A DNA stretch of 44,947 bases, taken from assembly GCA_024402495.1 (NCBI GenBank), contig JAKSTR010000015.1, forward strand, positions 1 to 44,947, in the 5' to 3' direction. The translations under genes and the position numbers were made by a program. The notes beneath the pieces were generated by a model. The model was not told the DNA's origin. It was given only the letters and a program-made list of their open reading frames with translations, and searched no databases. This DNA is from Treponemataceae bacterium. GTDB taxonomy: Bacteria; Spirochaetota; Spirochaetia; Treponematales; Treponemataceae. Below, in pieces: positions 4,790 to 11,500 of this stretch (positions are counted from its first letter, which is position 1; every line of letters begins with the position of its first letter).

Positions 4790-5686
4790 TTACAGGCTGG
4801 CTATAACAGCTGGAATAAGGCTGGAATCCAGAATTTCAAATGCAAAGCATTTTTTGCCCAGATCTTTAAGGCTGGCACCGATGTGATACAAAACAGAACC
4901 GTCAATAATCAAAAATCTGTCGTGCATTGCAGATGTAAAATGCAAAGACAAAGCCGGATACTGGGAATTGAATTTCTGAATGTCAAGATTTGTTATTCTG
5001 GTTTTTGCATCCGTATAAATTTTAACGGTTACGCCGCTTTTCTTTTTGGCAAATCGTTCCAGAACCGTCAAATCAATGTAAGCGTCAATCAGAATTATTT
5101 CATTTTTTGCAGCCTGTATGAAACTTTCAAATTTTGCATAAGCATCAAAAATCTGCCCCTGAAAGAAAATACCCTGTTTTTCTTCAATTCTGTATTTATC
5201 CATCAGCGTAAAAAGTTCATCAATCTTTTTGTCAGATTCTTTCTGGTGAATGGCAGTTTCTATAAAATGCTTTTTTAGAAAATCCAGTTCTACAAAAATT
5301 CTTTCATTGGACAAAAGGAAATGCCGCATTGAAACGAAGGCATCCATAATCATTATGCTGGTTTTTACGGCGGTTTCGCTTTTTAGCACTGCACTAAGCA
5401 TTGCCACGCCCTGTTCCGTAAAAGCGTACGGGTTGTAAGAAGAATGTTTCAGTACTGCAAACCGGTCGCAAATTGCGACCAGTTCTTCTTTTTCATTTTC
5501 GTTAAGCTGAAACATAAAATTTGCCGGAAACCGTTCGATGTTTCGCTTAACTTGTTCATTCAGTCGTTTGGTTTCAACGCCATAAAGTTCTGCCAAATCA
5601 CGGTCTATCATTACCTGCTGGTTTCTTACTGTTAAAATTCTTTCTTTAATTTCATCGCTGCCGTAAACTGTTATTTCGTTTGCCAT
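4790..5686 (-). CDS. ORF6N-domain protein with phospholipase-D-like C-terminal region
   Basis: 298 residues. Residues about 8-110 carry an ORF6N (KilA-N-associated, phage antirepressor-type) domain, recognisable by RNQQVMIDRDLAELYGV, NIERFPANFMFQL and FTEQGVAMLS. A coiled-coil-like linker follows. The C-terminal part has a PLD-like strand pattern and HDRFLIIDG near residue 256, then YHIGASLKDLGKK. This resembles one half of an HKD motif with Arg in place of Lys. Such proteins are often accessory genes scattered in bacterial chromosomes; a DNA-binding or regulatory role is inferred. An AAAGGAG Shine-Dalgarno sequence supports the ATG at 5686. The gene lies between 62-bp direct repeats, suggesting insertion or duplication as a cassette. 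No integrase is nearby. Confidence 0.85.
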   Translation of the reverse strand: MANEITVYGSDEIKERILTVRNQQVMIDRDLAELYGVETKRLNEQVKRNIERFPANFMFQLNENEKEELVAICDRFAVLKHSSYNPYAFTEQGVAMLSAVLKSETAVKTSIMIMDAFVSMRHFLLSNERIFVELDFLKKHFIETAIHQKESDKKIDELFTLMDKYRIEEKQGIFFQGQIFDAYAKFESFIQAAKNEIILIDAYIDLTVLERFAKKKSGVTVKIYTDAKTRITNLDIQKFNSQYPALSLHFTSAMHDRFLIIDGSVLYHIGASLKDLGKKCFAFEILDSSLIPAVIASL

Positions 5687-6810: not shown

Positions 6811-7422
6811 TCAAACCTTGTTTTTCAGCAAAGCATTCAGCTTTTTTTGCAAATGCCCGGCACTTAAACAGTTTGATACTTTGTATATATCGACATTTTG
6901 AGAACGATATTGAGCATATAAATCTTTTTGTGCGTAAAATCTTTTTAAAAGATCTTTAATTTTTGCCTTGTCACGGCGGCGGGCACGGTAAAGCCGCAGC
7001 AGAAAAGGCGCGGTAATAAAAATTACAAAGTCGCATTTGTGTATAAGCGGAACTTTGTACAAAACCGTAGCGTTCAAAACCCGGTTTTTGCTGCTGTTCT
7101 GCTGCAAAAAATCTTCCATAAGACGGTTAATTTCGCCGTGCACAATTTCTTCGTGCTTTTTTAGTTTTTCCGGCGAAGAAAAAACAATTTTGCCAAGATT
7201 TTTGCGTATAATTTTTCCGTCGCCGTCTACAAGCGGAATGTTTGCCTGCTCCGCATCCTGCTTAAAAGCTTGCAAAACCAAATCCTTGCAATTTTCCAGC
7301 GCCTGGTGTCCGGCAAGGTCGGCGTCAATGCAGGCAAAGCCCATATTCTGCAAGATGCCGGCGGCAAGATTTTTGCCGGAAGCCATTGGCCCGCAAAGAC
7401 CGATAATCAGTTTTTTTTCCAT
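6811..7422 (-). CDS. coaE: Dephospho-CoA kinase
   Basis: 203 residues, the family's usual size. It phosphorylates the 3'-hydroxyl of dephospho-CoA, the last step of coenzyme A synthesis, in the cytoplasm. The P-loop is GLCGPMASGKN, slightly unusual for the family consensus GxxGSGKS in ending with Asn. CIDADLAGH matches the substrate-binding Asp/His region, and LYKVPLIHKCDFVIFITAP matches the late conserved strand. I chose the ATG at 7422 because the P-loop then starts at a normal distance; an in-frame TTG at 7458 gives an untypical Lys-rich extension. The Shine-Dalgarno sequence is weak. The gene lies behind a strong terminator at 7500-7530, so expression needs readthrough, attenuation or a promoter in the roughly 75-nt gap. 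Confidence 0.9.
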   Translation of the reverse strand: MEKKLIIGLCGPMASGKNLAAGILQNMGFACIDADLAGHQALENCKDLVLQAFKQDAEQANIPLVDGDGKIIRKNLGKIVFSSPEKLKKHEEIVHGEINRLMEDFLQQNSSKNRVLNATVLYKVPLIHKCDFVIFITAPFLLRLYRARRRDKAKIKDLLKRFYAQKDLYAQYRSQNVDIYKVSNCLSAGHLQKKLNALLKNKV

Positions 7423-7487: not shown

Positions 7488-7636
7488 AAAAAAAAAAGAA
7501 GCTGAAAAAGTTCACAGTTCTTTTTCAGCTAAGGTCTACCGCTATAGACCACGTCATTTATCGCCGTCTGGATGTCAAAAACCGTCGATATATGCCGTAC
7601 ATTTTATGTATCGGTTGTGTAGTTTTTGGCTTTAGA
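7488..7636 (-). ncRNA. Candidate small RNA or attenuated leader of coaE
   Basis: On the minus strand a TATAAA box (7643-7648) with a weak TTTCAA -35 (16-nt spacing) precedes about 150 nt without an open frame. The RNA would hold a near-perfect hairpin CCG-A-TACAT/ATGTA-CGG, a GGTCTA/TAGACC hairpin (7533-7550) and a final 11-bp stem AGCTGAAAAAG/CTTTTTCAGCT followed by TC and ten T. The preceding gene ends with its own terminator at 7695-7711, so this is an independent unit. It matches no riboswitch or housekeeping RNA that I know. It could be a free RNA or a cis-regulator of coaE. Confidence 0.45.
7500..7530 (-). terminator. Strong intrinsic terminator upstream of coaE
   Basis: 11-bp perfect stem AGCTGAAAAAG/CTTTTTCAGCT, 9-nt loop, followed on the minus strand by TC and ten T residues. 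It lies 78 nt before the coaE start codon. Confidence 0.85.
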
Positions 7637-7694
7637 AAAATTTTTATAAATTTTGAATTTTTTTTTGAAACTGTAAAAAGCGGAAAAAAACAAA

Positions 7695-7711
7695 GACGCC
7701 TGCGCGGCGTC
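7695..7711 (-). terminator. Intrinsic terminator of the lepB-ftsI-DUF115 operon
   Basis: Stem GACGCC/GGCGTC with a 5-nt loop, followed on the minus strand by TTTGTTTTTTT. It lies 15 nt past the stop of the DUF115 gene. Confidence 0.8.
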
Positions 7712-7725
7712 CGTTACTACAAAAA

Positions 7726-9567
7726 TTATGCGCCTAAAAACTGCAAATGGGTTTTTACGGAACGGATAATTTCTTCGTAGATGATTTTTGATTTTTCCAG
7801 CGGATTTCTGGCATTGGCGCAAAGTTTTTCAAGTTTCTTTTCTGTGGGAAAAACCAGCGATGCAAGTTCTGCCGCCTGATTTTTTAAAATATTCTGGTCT
7901 ATCTGGGCAAGTTTTTGGGCGGCAAGGTCGCCGCGCATTTTACCGGCTAGCGCATCGCTGCAAATGGTGCGCGCATTTTGGGCGTTTACCAGAATGCTTT
8001 TCAGCATTTGGGCGGCTTCGTTTATGGCGCGGTCAAAATTTTTACTGCGTTCTTCAATTTGGGCAATTTTTTCGCTTTCGCTTTTTTCAATTGAAAGTTT
8101 TACAGCCTGCTTTTCTTTTAAGGTTTCCGGTCTGGCTAAAATTTCTTCTGCCGGCGCGTAAGGCATGCCCGGAATTTTTATGCCGTATTTCTGCATGTTA
8201 AAGGTTGTGCAGGTTTTGCCAAATTCGGCACATTTGCTTTCAAACCACCATGCATAAAGAGCCATGCGCTGGTCGCTCAGCACTTTGCCGCCTGCGTTGT
8301 CGTCCGCATAATACGGAAAAGCGCCGTAAAGCGCGTTGAAAGCGTCGGTTTCGGCAGGCTTCAGGCGGCTGCTAAGCCTGTGGGAACGTTCTTCAAACGT
8401 GCTGCCCTTAAAATGGGTTTTGTTCTGCGGAAAACTTAAATCAAGCCCAGTCATGAAAATATTTTTGCAGCCGCAAAGCCGGGCAAAATCCCACGCGGTT
8501 GTTACAACCGAACCGCCTGCGCCAAGTTCGCCGCGATTTTCGGTGCGCTTTTCTATAAACTTGCCAAGCGGGTAAAGCGAAGAACATAAAACGATTTCCT
8601 TGCATTCAAAGCGGAAAACCGGCGGAAAAGATGCCAGTTCGGTGATTAATACGCTGCTCGGCGCTTTCAGGTTGTCCAGATGGCGCAAGTTCCAGTATTG
8701 GGGGTCGCATACAACGATAAAATCGGGTTCTACGCCGGCTTTCAGGCAGGCTTTTAGGGCTGTATCAACGCAGACGGTCAGACAGCGCCGGTGAATTTGC
8801 GGCAATACCGGCAGAAACTGGTCTAGGCTTGGACCGGCGGCAATTACGCAGGCATCGAGGCTGGCAAATTTACCAAAGAACTTGCTTACGCCGTCCAGTT
8901 TTTTTGCCGCAGGCAGGTTCCGGCACATATTTCGCAGCCACAAAAGCGAAAATTTGTCCAGCGTTGCCTGATTTATTTCTTTTTTCTGCTTGTTGCGCTG
9001 AATAAGTTCCTGCAGGGCATTAAAATACTGAGCGTTATGCGCAATCTGGTTTTTGTTCAATATAAAATGGCAGTTTTCTATGCCGATTCTTTCTAAAATT
9101 GCAATTACGCTTTGCTGGGGCGCGGCAAGAAGCAGCACGCAGGAATTCTGTTCAAAAACCGGCGTCCAGTCTGCAAGGCTCAGCGCCAGAAGCAGGCGCA
9201 CGGGGTCGCATTCTATTAAAACAAGGCTTTTATTCTGAAAAGTTTTTGCAAATTTAATTGCGCCGTAACCAAGCCCGAAACCCATAAAAACCGCTGCATC
9301 TTTTTGCCTGATATTTTCATCGTTTATAAGGCGTGCGGCTTCTTTCTGCGGGTCGTATGCCGAATGAAGGGGTTTCTGGTCAAATACGGCAACGGGCAGA
9401 CCGGTTTTGCTTTGGCTTACCGTCACGCCGCAGATTTTTTCAAGACCGGCAATTTCAATCTGGTTTATTTCGCAGCCCAAAACTTCTTTAAGCGTTGCAA
9501 GTTCTGCATAAAGGTCAGCAAAACGTTTCTGCAAAAGTTCAAGGTTTTTATTCAAGAGTGAGTTCAA
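7726..9567 (-). CDS. DUF115 / motility-accessory-factor-like protein (MptE-like fold)
   Basis: About 613 residues from a TTG at 9567, chosen because GGAG lies 10 nt upstream and the protein-like sequence begins there (NSLLNKNLELLQKRF). Residues about 90-140 (FMGFGLGYGAIKFA, LVLIECDPVRL) look like a Rossmann-type N-terminal domain. The central DUF115 core has VIAAGPSLD and VCVDTALKACLKAGVEPDFIVVCD. A helical, Lys/Glu-rich C-terminal region follows. Homologues include Campylobacter Maf proteins, linked to flagellin glycosylation, and 6-hydroxymethylpterin pyrophosphokinase-like enzymes. In a spirochaete a flagellin-modification role is plausible but inferred. The start overlaps the end of ftsI by 20 nt, so the two are probably translationally coupled. 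Confidence 0.85.
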   Translation of the reverse strand: MNSLLNKNLELLQKRFADLYAELATLKEVLGCEINQIEIAGLEKICGVTVSQSKTGLPVAVFDQKPLHSAYDPQKEAARLINDENIRQKDAAVFMGFGLGYGAIKFAKTFQNKSLVLIECDPVRLLLALSLADWTPVFEQNSCVLLLAAPQQSVIAILERIGIENCHFILNKNQIAHNAQYFNALQELIQRNKQKKEINQATLDKFSLLWLRNMCRNLPAAKKLDGVSKFFGKFASLDACVIAAGPSLDQFLPVLPQIHRRCLTVCVDTALKACLKAGVEPDFIVVCDPQYWNLRHLDNLKAPSSVLITELASFPPVFRFECKEIVLCSSLYPLGKFIEKRTENRGELGAGGSVVTTAWDFARLCGCKNIFMTGLDLSFPQNKTHFKGSTFEERSHRLSSRLKPAETDAFNALYGAFPYYADDNAGGKVLSDQRMALYAWWFESKCAEFGKTCTTFNMQKYGIKIPGMPYAPAEEILARPETLKEKQAVKLSIEKSESEKIAQIEERSKNFDRAINEAAQMLKSILVNAQNARTICSDALAGKMRGDLAAQKLAQIDQNILKNQAAELASLVFPTEKKLEKLCANARNPLEKSKIIYEEIIRSVKTHLQFLGA

Positions 9568-11500
9568 TTGCCATGTTCTCCGTAACGGGTGTGCCGGGCG
9601 GCGGATTCTGGGAAACAACCCAGCCGTCGCCTTTTATTGTTATCTGCAGGTCGGTGCGGCTTAAAAGCGGCGTTAGCAGGCGTTTGGGGTAGCCTGTCAA
9701 ATCGGGCATGTAGGTTGCAATTGCAACCGGGCGGTCCTGCGGTATGGTAATTTTACCCGGGTGATTTATGGAAATTGCCCGGTCGCGTTGCATGCCCAGA
9801 TAGTCGATTATTACGTTCGCTGCGTCGTGTATGATAGGCGCAACGATGCGTCCGCCGTAGGTTTCGCCTTTTGCCTTTGTAATTACGATATAAAGAATTA
9901 TCTCAGGGTCTTCAATCGGGAAAACCGAAATGCAGCTTGAAAGGAAGTCGGTGCTGCTGTAGCCGCCGTGCACTTCGTCCAGCATTTGCGCCGTACCGGT
10001 TTTAACGCCGATGTTTATGTCGCTGATGTTTGCGCGGCTTCCCGTTCCGCTTTTGGCAGTGGTTTCCATGCAGCTTAAAACATAGTCCGCGGTAGATTTC
10101 TTTATGATTTGCGGCATTGGTTTTGGCACGTGCTGGTAAATTACGTTGTCTTCTTTATCAACAATTTTAGAAACTACCGTTAACGGCACAGGCACGCCGC
10201 CGTTTGCCAGGGCTGTTGCCGCCTGTACCATCTGTACTGCGGTAACACTGATTTCCTGCCCGATTGCAATAGTCGGTTTTGAACGTGCCGACCAGAATTT
10301 GTCCTGCGTATCTTTTACGGAACCGGCGGATTTTCCTTCAAGTTCAATTTCGGGAATAGAACCGAACCCCAGATTATGAATCTGGGCAAGAAAATATTCT
10401 GCGTTGATTTTCTGGCTCATTTGCGCCAGTGCGTCGTTGCAGGAATATTTCAAGGCTTCACGGGCGGTTAAAGTGCCGTGATGGTCAAGACAGTTTATGC
10501 GTACAACTTCGCCTTTGGTGCGCACTTCAAATACGCCGTCGCATACAAATTTTTCATCCGGGCTGATAACCCCCGCATCCAGAAACGAAGCAACGGAAAA
10601 AATCTTAAAAACAGAACCCGGTTCGTAGGAATATCCGATCGGGCGGTTTAAACGCTGGGCTTCCGTTGAACTTGGGTATTCGTTAAGGTTTGGCGACGGC
10701 AAACTGATGTAAGTCAATATTTCGCCGGTTTTTGCTTCTGCGGCAAGCAGCATCATGCTTTCTGCCTGAGTCGTTTCCATGGCGCTTTTTGCAAGCTGTT
10801 CAAGCTTGTACTGAAGGTTGCTGTCAATTGTAAGCAGAACATTGTTGCCGTAGTCGTTTATAAGCTTGCTGTTCTGCGGCGGCGCCAGAGTAGAATCAAG
10901 GCTGTGTTCAATACCGGCAAGCCCGGTGTTATCGCTGCCGACAAAACCGATTAGCTGCGCCGCCATGCTGTTTTCGGGGTAGGCGCGGGTAGTGGTTTCT
11001 TCAAGCCTTATGCCGTGAATATTTGCCGCGGCAACCGCTGCAAGCACGTCATCGGCTTCGCTTTGTGAAATTTTCTTTTTAATGTAAGTGAAACTGTTGG
11101 TGGTCGCCTTCAGCTTATCCGAAATTTCCCGGCTTTCAATTCCGATAATCGGGCTTAAAATCTGGGCAAAAATATCGTAGTTTTCTTCGCGCAGTTTTTT
11201 TGGATCTACGCCAAGATTGTAAACCTTGGTTTGAATGGCAAGAACTTTACCGTTTCGGTCTAAAATTGAACCGCGTTCGCGGATTTGGGTTTCTACCGCG
11301 GTGGGCTGCGCAGGCTGAAACATGAGGGATGCAAATTTTGCCATAATCGCGCCAATGCCTGCGGTCATGATGATGGTGAAAAATAAAAGTCTTCCTGTAG
11401 AATAAAAGCCGTTTGTCGTTTTGGATTTCAGCCACCCGATAAATCCGCGTTCGCCGGAATCTCTTTTTGGCGGTTCTGAATAGAATGCGTCGGTTGTCAT
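9548..11500 (-). CDS. ftsI: Class B penicillin-binding protein, FtsI/PBP3-like with PASTA domain
   Basis: 650 residues. It cross-links peptidoglycan by transpeptidation at the septum or lateral wall. A cytoplasmic N-terminus is followed by one membrane helix (about 36-60), a dimerisation domain starting RERGSILDRNGKVLA, and a transpeptidase domain. The catalytic motifs are S296-V-F-K299, S353-C-N355 and K500-T-G502. The last 60 residues look like a PASTA domain (MPDLTGYPKRLLTPLL, NPPPGTPV), seen in FtsI/SpoVD-type proteins. Its ATG overlaps the lepB stop in ATGA, and its own end overlaps the next gene, indicating a tightly coupled operon. FtsI rather than a paralogue is likely but not proven, since ftsW is not nearby. 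Confidence 0.92.
   Translation of the reverse strand: MTTDAFYSEPPKRDSGERGFIGWLKSKTTNGFYSTGRLLFFTIIMTAGIGAIMAKFASLMFQPAQPTAVETQIRERGSILDRNGKVLAIQTKVYNLGVDPKKLREENYDIFAQILSPIIGIESREISDKLKATTNSFTYIKKKISQSEADDVLAAVAAANIHGIRLEETTTRAYPENSMAAQLIGFVGSDNTGLAGIEHSLDSTLAPPQNSKLINDYGNNVLLTIDSNLQYKLEQLAKSAMETTQAESMMLLAAEAKTGEILTYISLPSPNLNEYPSSTEAQRLNRPIGYSYEPGSVFKIFSVASFLDAGVISPDEKFVCDGVFEVRTKGEVVRINCLDHHGTLTAREALKYSCNDALAQMSQKINAEYFLAQIHNLGFGSIPEIELEGKSAGSVKDTQDKFWSARSKPTIAIGQEISVTAVQMVQAATALANGGVPVPLTVVSKIVDKEDNVIYQHVPKPMPQIIKKSTADYVLSCMETTAKSGTGSRANISDINIGVKTGTAQMLDEVHGGYSSTDFLSSCISVFPIEDPEIILYIVITKAKGETYGGRIVAPIIHDAANVIIDYLGMQRDRAISINHPGKITIPQDRPVAIATYMPDLTGYPKRLLTPLLSRTDLQITIKGDGWVVSQNPPPGTPVTENMAIELTLE

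Follow-up and report, generated by a model that had tools for sequence, protein, structure and literature searches.

The minus-strand gap between a DUF115/Maf-type gene and coaE, in the 44,947-nt stretch of Treponemataceae DNA analysed here (the window), contains two terminators that flank a candidate small-RNA gene. This raises the question of whether the element is a leader of coaE or a gene in its own right and, in the latter case, what it acts on. We consider it probable, at about 0.83, that the locus encodes a free-standing small RNA (sRNA) acting in trans, whose transcription would depend on sigma-28 and whose loop would kiss a hairpin in the 3' UTR of a flagellin mRNA. Judged from sequence comparison, this sRNA very probably controls how treponemes build flagella.

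Organization of the locus

The upstream neighbour (7726-9618, minus strand) encodes an MptE-like/DUF115 protein with a Maf N-terminal domain (Pfam PF01973 and PF20157), and this gene adjoins the sRNA in other genera too. Its terminator, located by a terminator scan at 7694-7712 (minus), lies outside the sRNA and forms the boundary. The downstream neighbour is coaE (6811-7422, minus; PF01121) with its ATG at 7422. Sequence and fold place the intrinsic terminator of the sRNA at 7488-7530 (minus; stem 7500-7530, T tract 7488-7499), with the stem ending about 78 nt and the T tract about 65 nt upstream of coaE. It is kept in all 8 genomes of the genus and is absent from the list of the terminator scan because its 9-nt loop is larger than the limit of 8 set by the tool. 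The two minus-strand terminators reported in the initial annotation, including a textbook one 78 nt before coaE, are therefore both present (7712-7694, and stem 7530-7500 with the T tract reaching 7488).

The same annotation described several hairpins over about 150 nt. Hairpins do fold in this region, but its 5' part (7634-7609) is predicted promoter DNA and therefore the transcript is predicted only at about 7602-7488. The predicted sRNA (7488-7602, minus) is about 115 nt long, its 5' end being set by the promoter, with the +1 placed about 7 nt past CCGATA, and its 3' end by the terminator. Fold and covariation support a conserved hairpin (7551-7598, minus) presenting the pairing loop TGACATCCAGA (7567-7577, minus), an 11-nt complement of a flagellin 3' UTR loop in the same genome. 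The second hairpin GGTCTATAGCGGTAGACC (7533-7550, minus), seen in the fold, is less conserved and varies in form across the genus.

Compared with dinucleotide shuffles, the minus strand has a more stable fold (z -3.84, 0/200). The plus strand folds equally well (z -3.87) and the strand is therefore not given by folding alone. Two open reading frames of 62 and 72 aa overlap the element mechanically and neither has a Pfam match. A permissive Rfam scan of the window gave a single match at E < 0.01, to isrD at 7721-7688. The matched stretch is the upstream terminator and scores 27.1 bits against a threshold of 37; no Rfam family reaches threshold in the window, in agreement with the earlier view that the element fits no known riboswitch or small-RNA class. 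The resemblance of this terminator (7688-7721, minus) to isrD looks like a common terminator shape. Elsewhere in the window (4790-5686, minus), a 298-aa ORF has an N-terminus that by eye resembles phage-origin ORF6N/KilA-N DNA-binding proteins.

A predicted sigma-28 promoter precedes the sRNA

The most conserved 5' sequence consists of a TAAA element (7631-7634, minus), assigned as -35 from its spacing in homologs and a pattern scan, and of CCGATA (7609-7614, minus), assigned as -10 and invariant in alignment A4. In our first set of homologs the gap before CCGATA is 16 nt in 30 of 30 sequences, the -35 element being TAAA in 28 and TAAT in 2. The length of this spacer is fixed and its sequence variable in all 30. 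As the spacing is constant while the spacer is free, the conserved 5' box is best read as a promoter and not as a stem, namely a predicted sigma-28 (FliA) promoter of the form TAAA-N16-CCGATA. Its geometry equals that of the sigma-28 consensus, which we take to be TAAAGTTT-N11-GCCGATAA. The promoter-like box of the initial annotation is thus borne out, as a promoter type that had gone unseen there, and a natural misreading is corrected in which the most conserved sequence of the leader would be taken for RNA. Our first RNAalifold model, in which CCGATA paired with CGG in a 5' hairpin, was ruled out by the strict promoter spacing, and covariance model R2 treats CCGATA as unpaired.

Flagellin genes of the genus share the same promoter architecture (L135, L147, L148, L159 and L161). 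For flaB2 of T. denticola, a start mapped by 5' RACE is reported with a -10 of CCGATAA and a -35 of TTAA (PMC9481697). Together these features suggest that the sRNA appears to be switched on together with flagella in treponemes.

Public genomes were scanned with a pattern from which the -35 box was omitted; the test covered the 80 stretches listed among the 87 reported. Among the matches listed, a -35 box (at least 3 of 4 letters) is in place in 64 of 64 spirochaete and 0 of 16 other matches, the split being taken from record titles; carriers among them include Treponema bryantii (two strains), T. parvum and a T. brennaborense MAG. Presence of FliA gives no contrast, because its model has a match in 274 of 274 family genomes (247 above the curated cut-off). 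In the window's genome the strict promoter pattern is unspecific, with 14 sites against 11 for a reversed control pattern. By script, 4 of the 14 have no overlapping ORF, and the sRNA locus overlaps a small ORF only. One of these four sites precedes, by eye, a gene for a chemotaxis-receptor-like protein. At locus L036, a GC-rich element resembling an inverted repeat, GGATTGCCGCGTCGCTTCGCTCCTCGCAATGAC, abuts the sRNA promoter upstream.

A family of RNAs in Treponemataceae

The element is no chance pattern: BLAST identified homologs with 71-76% identity (E 6e-21 to 2e-10) in all 7 other genomes searched within the genus. A covariance model built from the eight sequences of the genus (R1) matched 84 of 274 family genomes at E <= 1. 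The 22 best new loci have TAAA or TAAT, 16 variable bases, CCGATA, the hairpin and then mostly a terminator, and the hairpin loop reads GACATCCAGA, with a variant in 2 of the 22. A second model (R2), built on 30 sequences and covering both promoter and hairpin, matched 243 of 274 family genomes at E <= 0.1, where about 27 are expected by chance; its matches cover 119 of 128 good-quality family genomes and 20 of 20 genera. Over the order it matched 168 of 390 genomes at E <= 0.01, including weakly scoring genomes of sister family f5, and all these R2 counts will include further false matches like L119 and L130. The latter two, out of 39 diverse loci, lack the loop, look like false matches and were dropped. 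We consider that the predicted RNA family is spread through Treponemataceae and is also present in two sister families.

The six core pairs of the hairpin are 95.0% paired over 30 sequences, and the covariance check across treponemes proposed at the outset shows that the hairpin covaries (0.693 versus 0.296 when shuffled, 0/500), with slid versions of it reaching at most 0.180. Over the diverse loci the loop reads ACRUCCRG and is near-invariant, with few departures. In f5 and in G027 (family f4) a T tract directly follows the hairpin, which doubles as terminator; the strand of the sRNA is therefore fixed. In alignments A4 and A5, respectively, L041 and L048, and L313, are one column off.

The sRNA is usually present as one gene per genome. 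The gene downstream of it is coaE in all 8 genomes of the genus, and tblastn found no coaE in the flanks of 22 of 22 loci from other genera, where an HD-domain gene (11), a gene for a DUF975 membrane protein (7) or another or no gene (4) follows. The sRNA therefore does not belong to coaE. A free-standing small RNA, one of the two possibilities raised in the initial annotation, is supported, whereas the other, a CoA-related attenuator, is contradicted by the lack of coaE at those 22 loci. What had been observed at the locus is confirmed and its interpretation is partly supported. In 18 homologous loci, Rfam yielded no family but tRNA.

Two further features were seen in the family. The loop of the sRNA terminator often reads (G)UGUGAG across genera (L007, L030, L034, L111 and L355) and is maybe a second functional loop. 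In genus g5 (L031 and relatives), the sRNA has a divergently oriented neighbour that encodes 5-formyltetrahydrofolate cyclo-ligase.

The loop is complementary to a hairpin in the flagellin 3' UTR

The complementary sequence TCTGGATGTC has four exact sites in the window's genome. One is in the sRNA gene, two are in long open frames, and the fourth directly follows the stop codon of flaB, the second of the tandem core flagellins. The target loop TCTGGATGTCA (G000:C13:38448-38457 plus one base) is the 11-nt complement of the sRNA loop. An identical site occupies this position in G001, G002, G005 and G006, and a version with a single change does so in G004 and G007. The target is followed by flaG (PF03646, from two cases tested), whose place is taken by fliD (PF02465) in G059, a T. 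denticola-like genome.

The target lies in a hairpin with the stem AAGAGA/UCUUUU and a 13-nt loop containing UCUGGAUGUCA, situated between the flaB stop codon and the next hairpin or terminator. Its 34 loci from five families align without gaps, it covaries (0.363 versus 0.177 shuffled, 0/500) and the GGA of its loop is invariant in all 34 sequences. The other flagellin genes examined are without this hairpin. An exact complement of at least 9 nt is present within 120 nt past the stop codon of the second flagellin in 23 of 24 genomes. The corresponding figures are 269 of 4800 for shuffled 3' UTRs and 2 of 17 for other flagellin genes, where both matches are A/T-rich runs. The longest match in G002 is also an A/T-rich run, yet this genome carries the 11-nt site as well.

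No target site is present in the 5' leaders of the flagellin genes examined, the sole GGATGT among them lying upstream of the promoter of a flagellin in G008. For the 11-bp duplex in isolation the predicted energy is -18.6 kcal/mol, and in the predicted folds both loops are open in large part. The remaining exact sites in G000, G001, G002 and G004 have unrelated surroundings, apart from one site in G001 and one in G002, which share their context.

In the intergenic region between flaB and flaG or fliD, the loop of the next hairpin contains a recurrent GCGCC, with a stem that differs by genus (L289, L298, L314 and L315). The leader of the first tandem flagellin (G000:C13, G001:C87 and relatives) carries near the ribosome site a small hairpin with CACGGAUGC or a similar sequence, resembling a GGA loop of the CsrA type.

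Covariation between the two loops

Sixteen genomes were picked for their differing RNA loops. The flagellin loop reads GGACGU where the RNA reads ACGUCC (G009, G051, G024, G034, G377 and G425), CCGG where the RNA reads CCGG (G084, G080 and G021), and GGAUGUU where the RNA reads AACAUCC (G059, G062 and G063). In a set of 25 genomes, Watson-Crick pairs are formed at 251 of 275 positions against a mean of 228.7 with shuffled partners (0 of 100,000 as high), and with one row per genus 137 of 154 are paired against 127.2 (53 of 100,000); because related genomes are not independent these shuffle tests overstate the significance, and the one-per-genus test is the safer of the two. The trans-pairing and complement tests exclude G061, G153, G082, G008 and G027, for which the RNA pattern was informed by flagellin loops, and the test of complements of at least 9 nt also leaves out G005. 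G003, with a single flagellin match, stands outside the tests.

On the flagellin tree, examined in 28- and 24-genome versions from both of which G027 and G005 are absent, the changes at loop positions 2, 4, 5 and 9 coincide, both sides together requiring no more steps than the more variable of them does by itself. Positions 1 and 11 of the loop are often unpaired, G015 has a single mismatch at position 2, and G012 has a mismatch in the core (A in the sRNA, C in flaB) with a longest exact match of 6 nt. Complementarity together with covariation in trans suggests base-pairing with a flagellar mRNA. In the tested set the invariant letters of the mRNA are C, GGA and one U (positions 10, 8, 7, 6 and 3). 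These are not demanded by pairing alone, and an additional constraint, for instance CsrA at the GGA, would account for them.

Alternative explanations

The pairing is symmetric, and the flagellin mRNA could itself be the regulator, its 3' UTR hairpin acting as a sponge that titrates the sRNA from other targets. Flagellin mRNA is normally abundant, and the window's genome has two more exact TCTGGATGTC sites, both inside long open frames. However, no other conserved target is seen among the exact sites in G000, G001, G002 and G004, and we regard this arrangement as unlikely. It is also conceivable, and we think distinctly improbable, that both hairpins answer to a protein such as CsrA, the complementarity being a by-product and the RNA locus a decoy of the flagellin site. 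In its favour are the GGA kept in all 34 flagellin loops beyond what pairing alone demands, and the CsrA sites reported near the start of T. denticola flaB genes (PMC9481697). Since the strand with promoter and terminator carries UCC, the complement of GGA, the sRNA cannot be a GGA decoy, and in sister families the hairpin has its T tract on the same strand. A sponge of the Csr type was considered separately and rejected, as the predicted transcript is without GGA in its loops and its conserved loop carries UCC. CsrB/RsmZ-type sponges have several GGA motifs in hairpin loops.

The position just upstream of coaE in all eight genomes of the genus would suit a CoA-related transcription attenuator or riboswitch in the coaE leader, but this is already contradicted by the different downstream genes in other genera. 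There is no Rfam riboswitch match, no alternative antiterminator pairing was noticed by eye, and the conserved parts are the predicted promoter and a loop that tracks the flagellin, leaving very little room for such a leader. A known housekeeping RNA such as 6S, unrecognised by Rfam, would agree with a length near 115 nt and one gene per genome as a rule, and the cyclo-ligase gene nearby in genus g5 attracted attention as a 6S-like neighbourhood, ygfA adjoining 6S RNA in proteobacteria. This lead was dropped, since the window's genome has no RF00013 match at E <= 10, while 8 of 14 control genomes matched. The fold also lacks a long rod and central bubble and the loop tracks the flagellin, which makes a 6S-type RNA barely credible.

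Proposed mechanism

Promoter pattern, RNA structure, target hairpin, complementarity and the compensatory changes between the RNAs are direct computational observations, and from them we infer that the RNA is made, that sigma-28 is its maker and that pairing occurs in the cell. According to the sRNA model preferred here, sigma-28 (FliA) RNA polymerase would start about 7 nt past CCGATA and stop at the sRNA terminator. The hairpin of the folded sRNA would then expose the loop UGACAUCCAGA, which would kiss the loop of the flaB 3' UTR hairpin over 9-11 bp. In doing so the sRNA would probably cover a loop that otherwise serves CsrA as a GGA site, the GGA of the flaB loop being presumably a CsrA motif. 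Sigma-28 acts late in flagellar hierarchies, and for this reason we think that the most likely effect, which is also the least certain step, would be to couple the fate of the core-flagellin message (its stability, or passage into flaG/fliD) to assembly. Repression through RNase cleavage of the paired RNAs would be nearly as likely as coupling by covering of the CsrA site. On balance it seems plausible to hypothesize an order-wide flagellar checkpoint, in which a sigma-28-dependent sRNA and a hairpin of the core-flagellin 3' UTR, kissing through their loops, would have evolved together throughout the existence of these spirochaete families.

Comparison with known flagellar regulators

Flagellar sRNAs under sigma-28 are already known from E. 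coli and Campylobacter (PMC10578931, PMC11187230). The sigma-28-dependent sRNAs reported in E. coli are UhpU, MotR, FliX and FlgO, the first three of which base-pair with fliC mRNA and raise or lower flagellin (PMC10578931). They share with the treponeme sRNA the flagellar sigma factor and the pairing with a flagellin mRNA, both predicted in our case. As described in the available text of that report, the E. coli sRNAs derive from UTRs, bind Hfq and pair within the coding sequence of fliC, and they are conserved in some Enterobacteriaceae (PMC10578931). In contrast, the treponeme sRNA, which belongs to another phylum and is compared here by reported features, has its own intergenic gene and promoter, a predicted loop-loop pairing in the 3' UTR and a pair of loops covarying across families. 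In Campylobacter jejuni, FliA-dependent CJnc170 (FlmR) is described with CJnc230 (FlmE) (PMC11187230), and CjNC1/CjNC4 are further FliA-dependent comparators (PMC4626219). The likeness lies in a FliA-dependent small RNA tuning flagellar length and motility; the difference, besides the phylum, is that CJnc230 targets Cj1387c (a flagella-interaction regulator) and flgM, with no flagellin 3' UTR hairpin in the available account (PMC11187230). CsrA-FliW controls flagellin mRNA (PMC4894983), likewise post-transcriptionally and via GGA sites, and the flaB 3' UTR loop has an invariant GGA. However, CsrA is a protein with sites near the ribosome site, whereas the treponeme partner would be an RNA at the 3' end, and the link between the two is our proposal. 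As predicted here, the treponeme sRNA differs from these systems in being encoded separately under a sigma-28 promoter of its own, in pairing loop to loop with a target in the 3' UTR of flagellin, and in a co-evolution that is visible across families.

Our search of the literature, in a limited collection, found no sRNA described at this locus and none acting on a treponeme flagellin. A paper on candidate structured RNAs mentions treponeme motifs, in its available text, only before ribosomal protein genes (PMC8040213). Regulatory small RNAs of treponemes seem to be hardly described, and the sRNA-flaB pair offers an immediate way of testing whether periplasmic flagella, the basis of spirochaete motility, are controlled at the RNA level.

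Flagellin loops predict further RNAs

The flagellin hairpin is also present in a T. pallidum-like genome (G060) and in families f2 and f3, and a matching RNA is therefore predicted in each. For the T. pallidum-like genome this would be an RNA with a loop near UGACAUCCGA. The target hairpin is present there, and no RNA was found by R2 or in five stretches of about 99.5 kb in total; the loop predicted for it was not covered by the general pattern described below.

A flagellin loop can be used to foretell the loop of an sRNA before the sRNA is found. We read the flagellin hairpins of nine genomes in which the R2 match is absent or weak (E 0.07 in G008, none in G070) or whose family was not yet represented among the RNA loci. 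One and the same general pattern search gave no such loop in G215, G070, G026 and G025 and recovered the RNA loop predicted from the flagellin in 5 of the 9 genomes: CAACAUCCAG in G153 and G082, UGACAUCCGG in G061, CGACGUCCAG in G027, and in G008 an RNA with AUAUCC facing a flagellin GGAUAU that was otherwise unseen. All five recovered RNAs are preceded by a sigma-28-like promoter, with TAAA or TTAA at a spacing of 16 or 17, and have a hairpin that closes the loop. In the RNAs of G082 (L352) and G153 (L353), an extra small hairpin is inserted ahead of the pairing loop in the sRNA hairpin.
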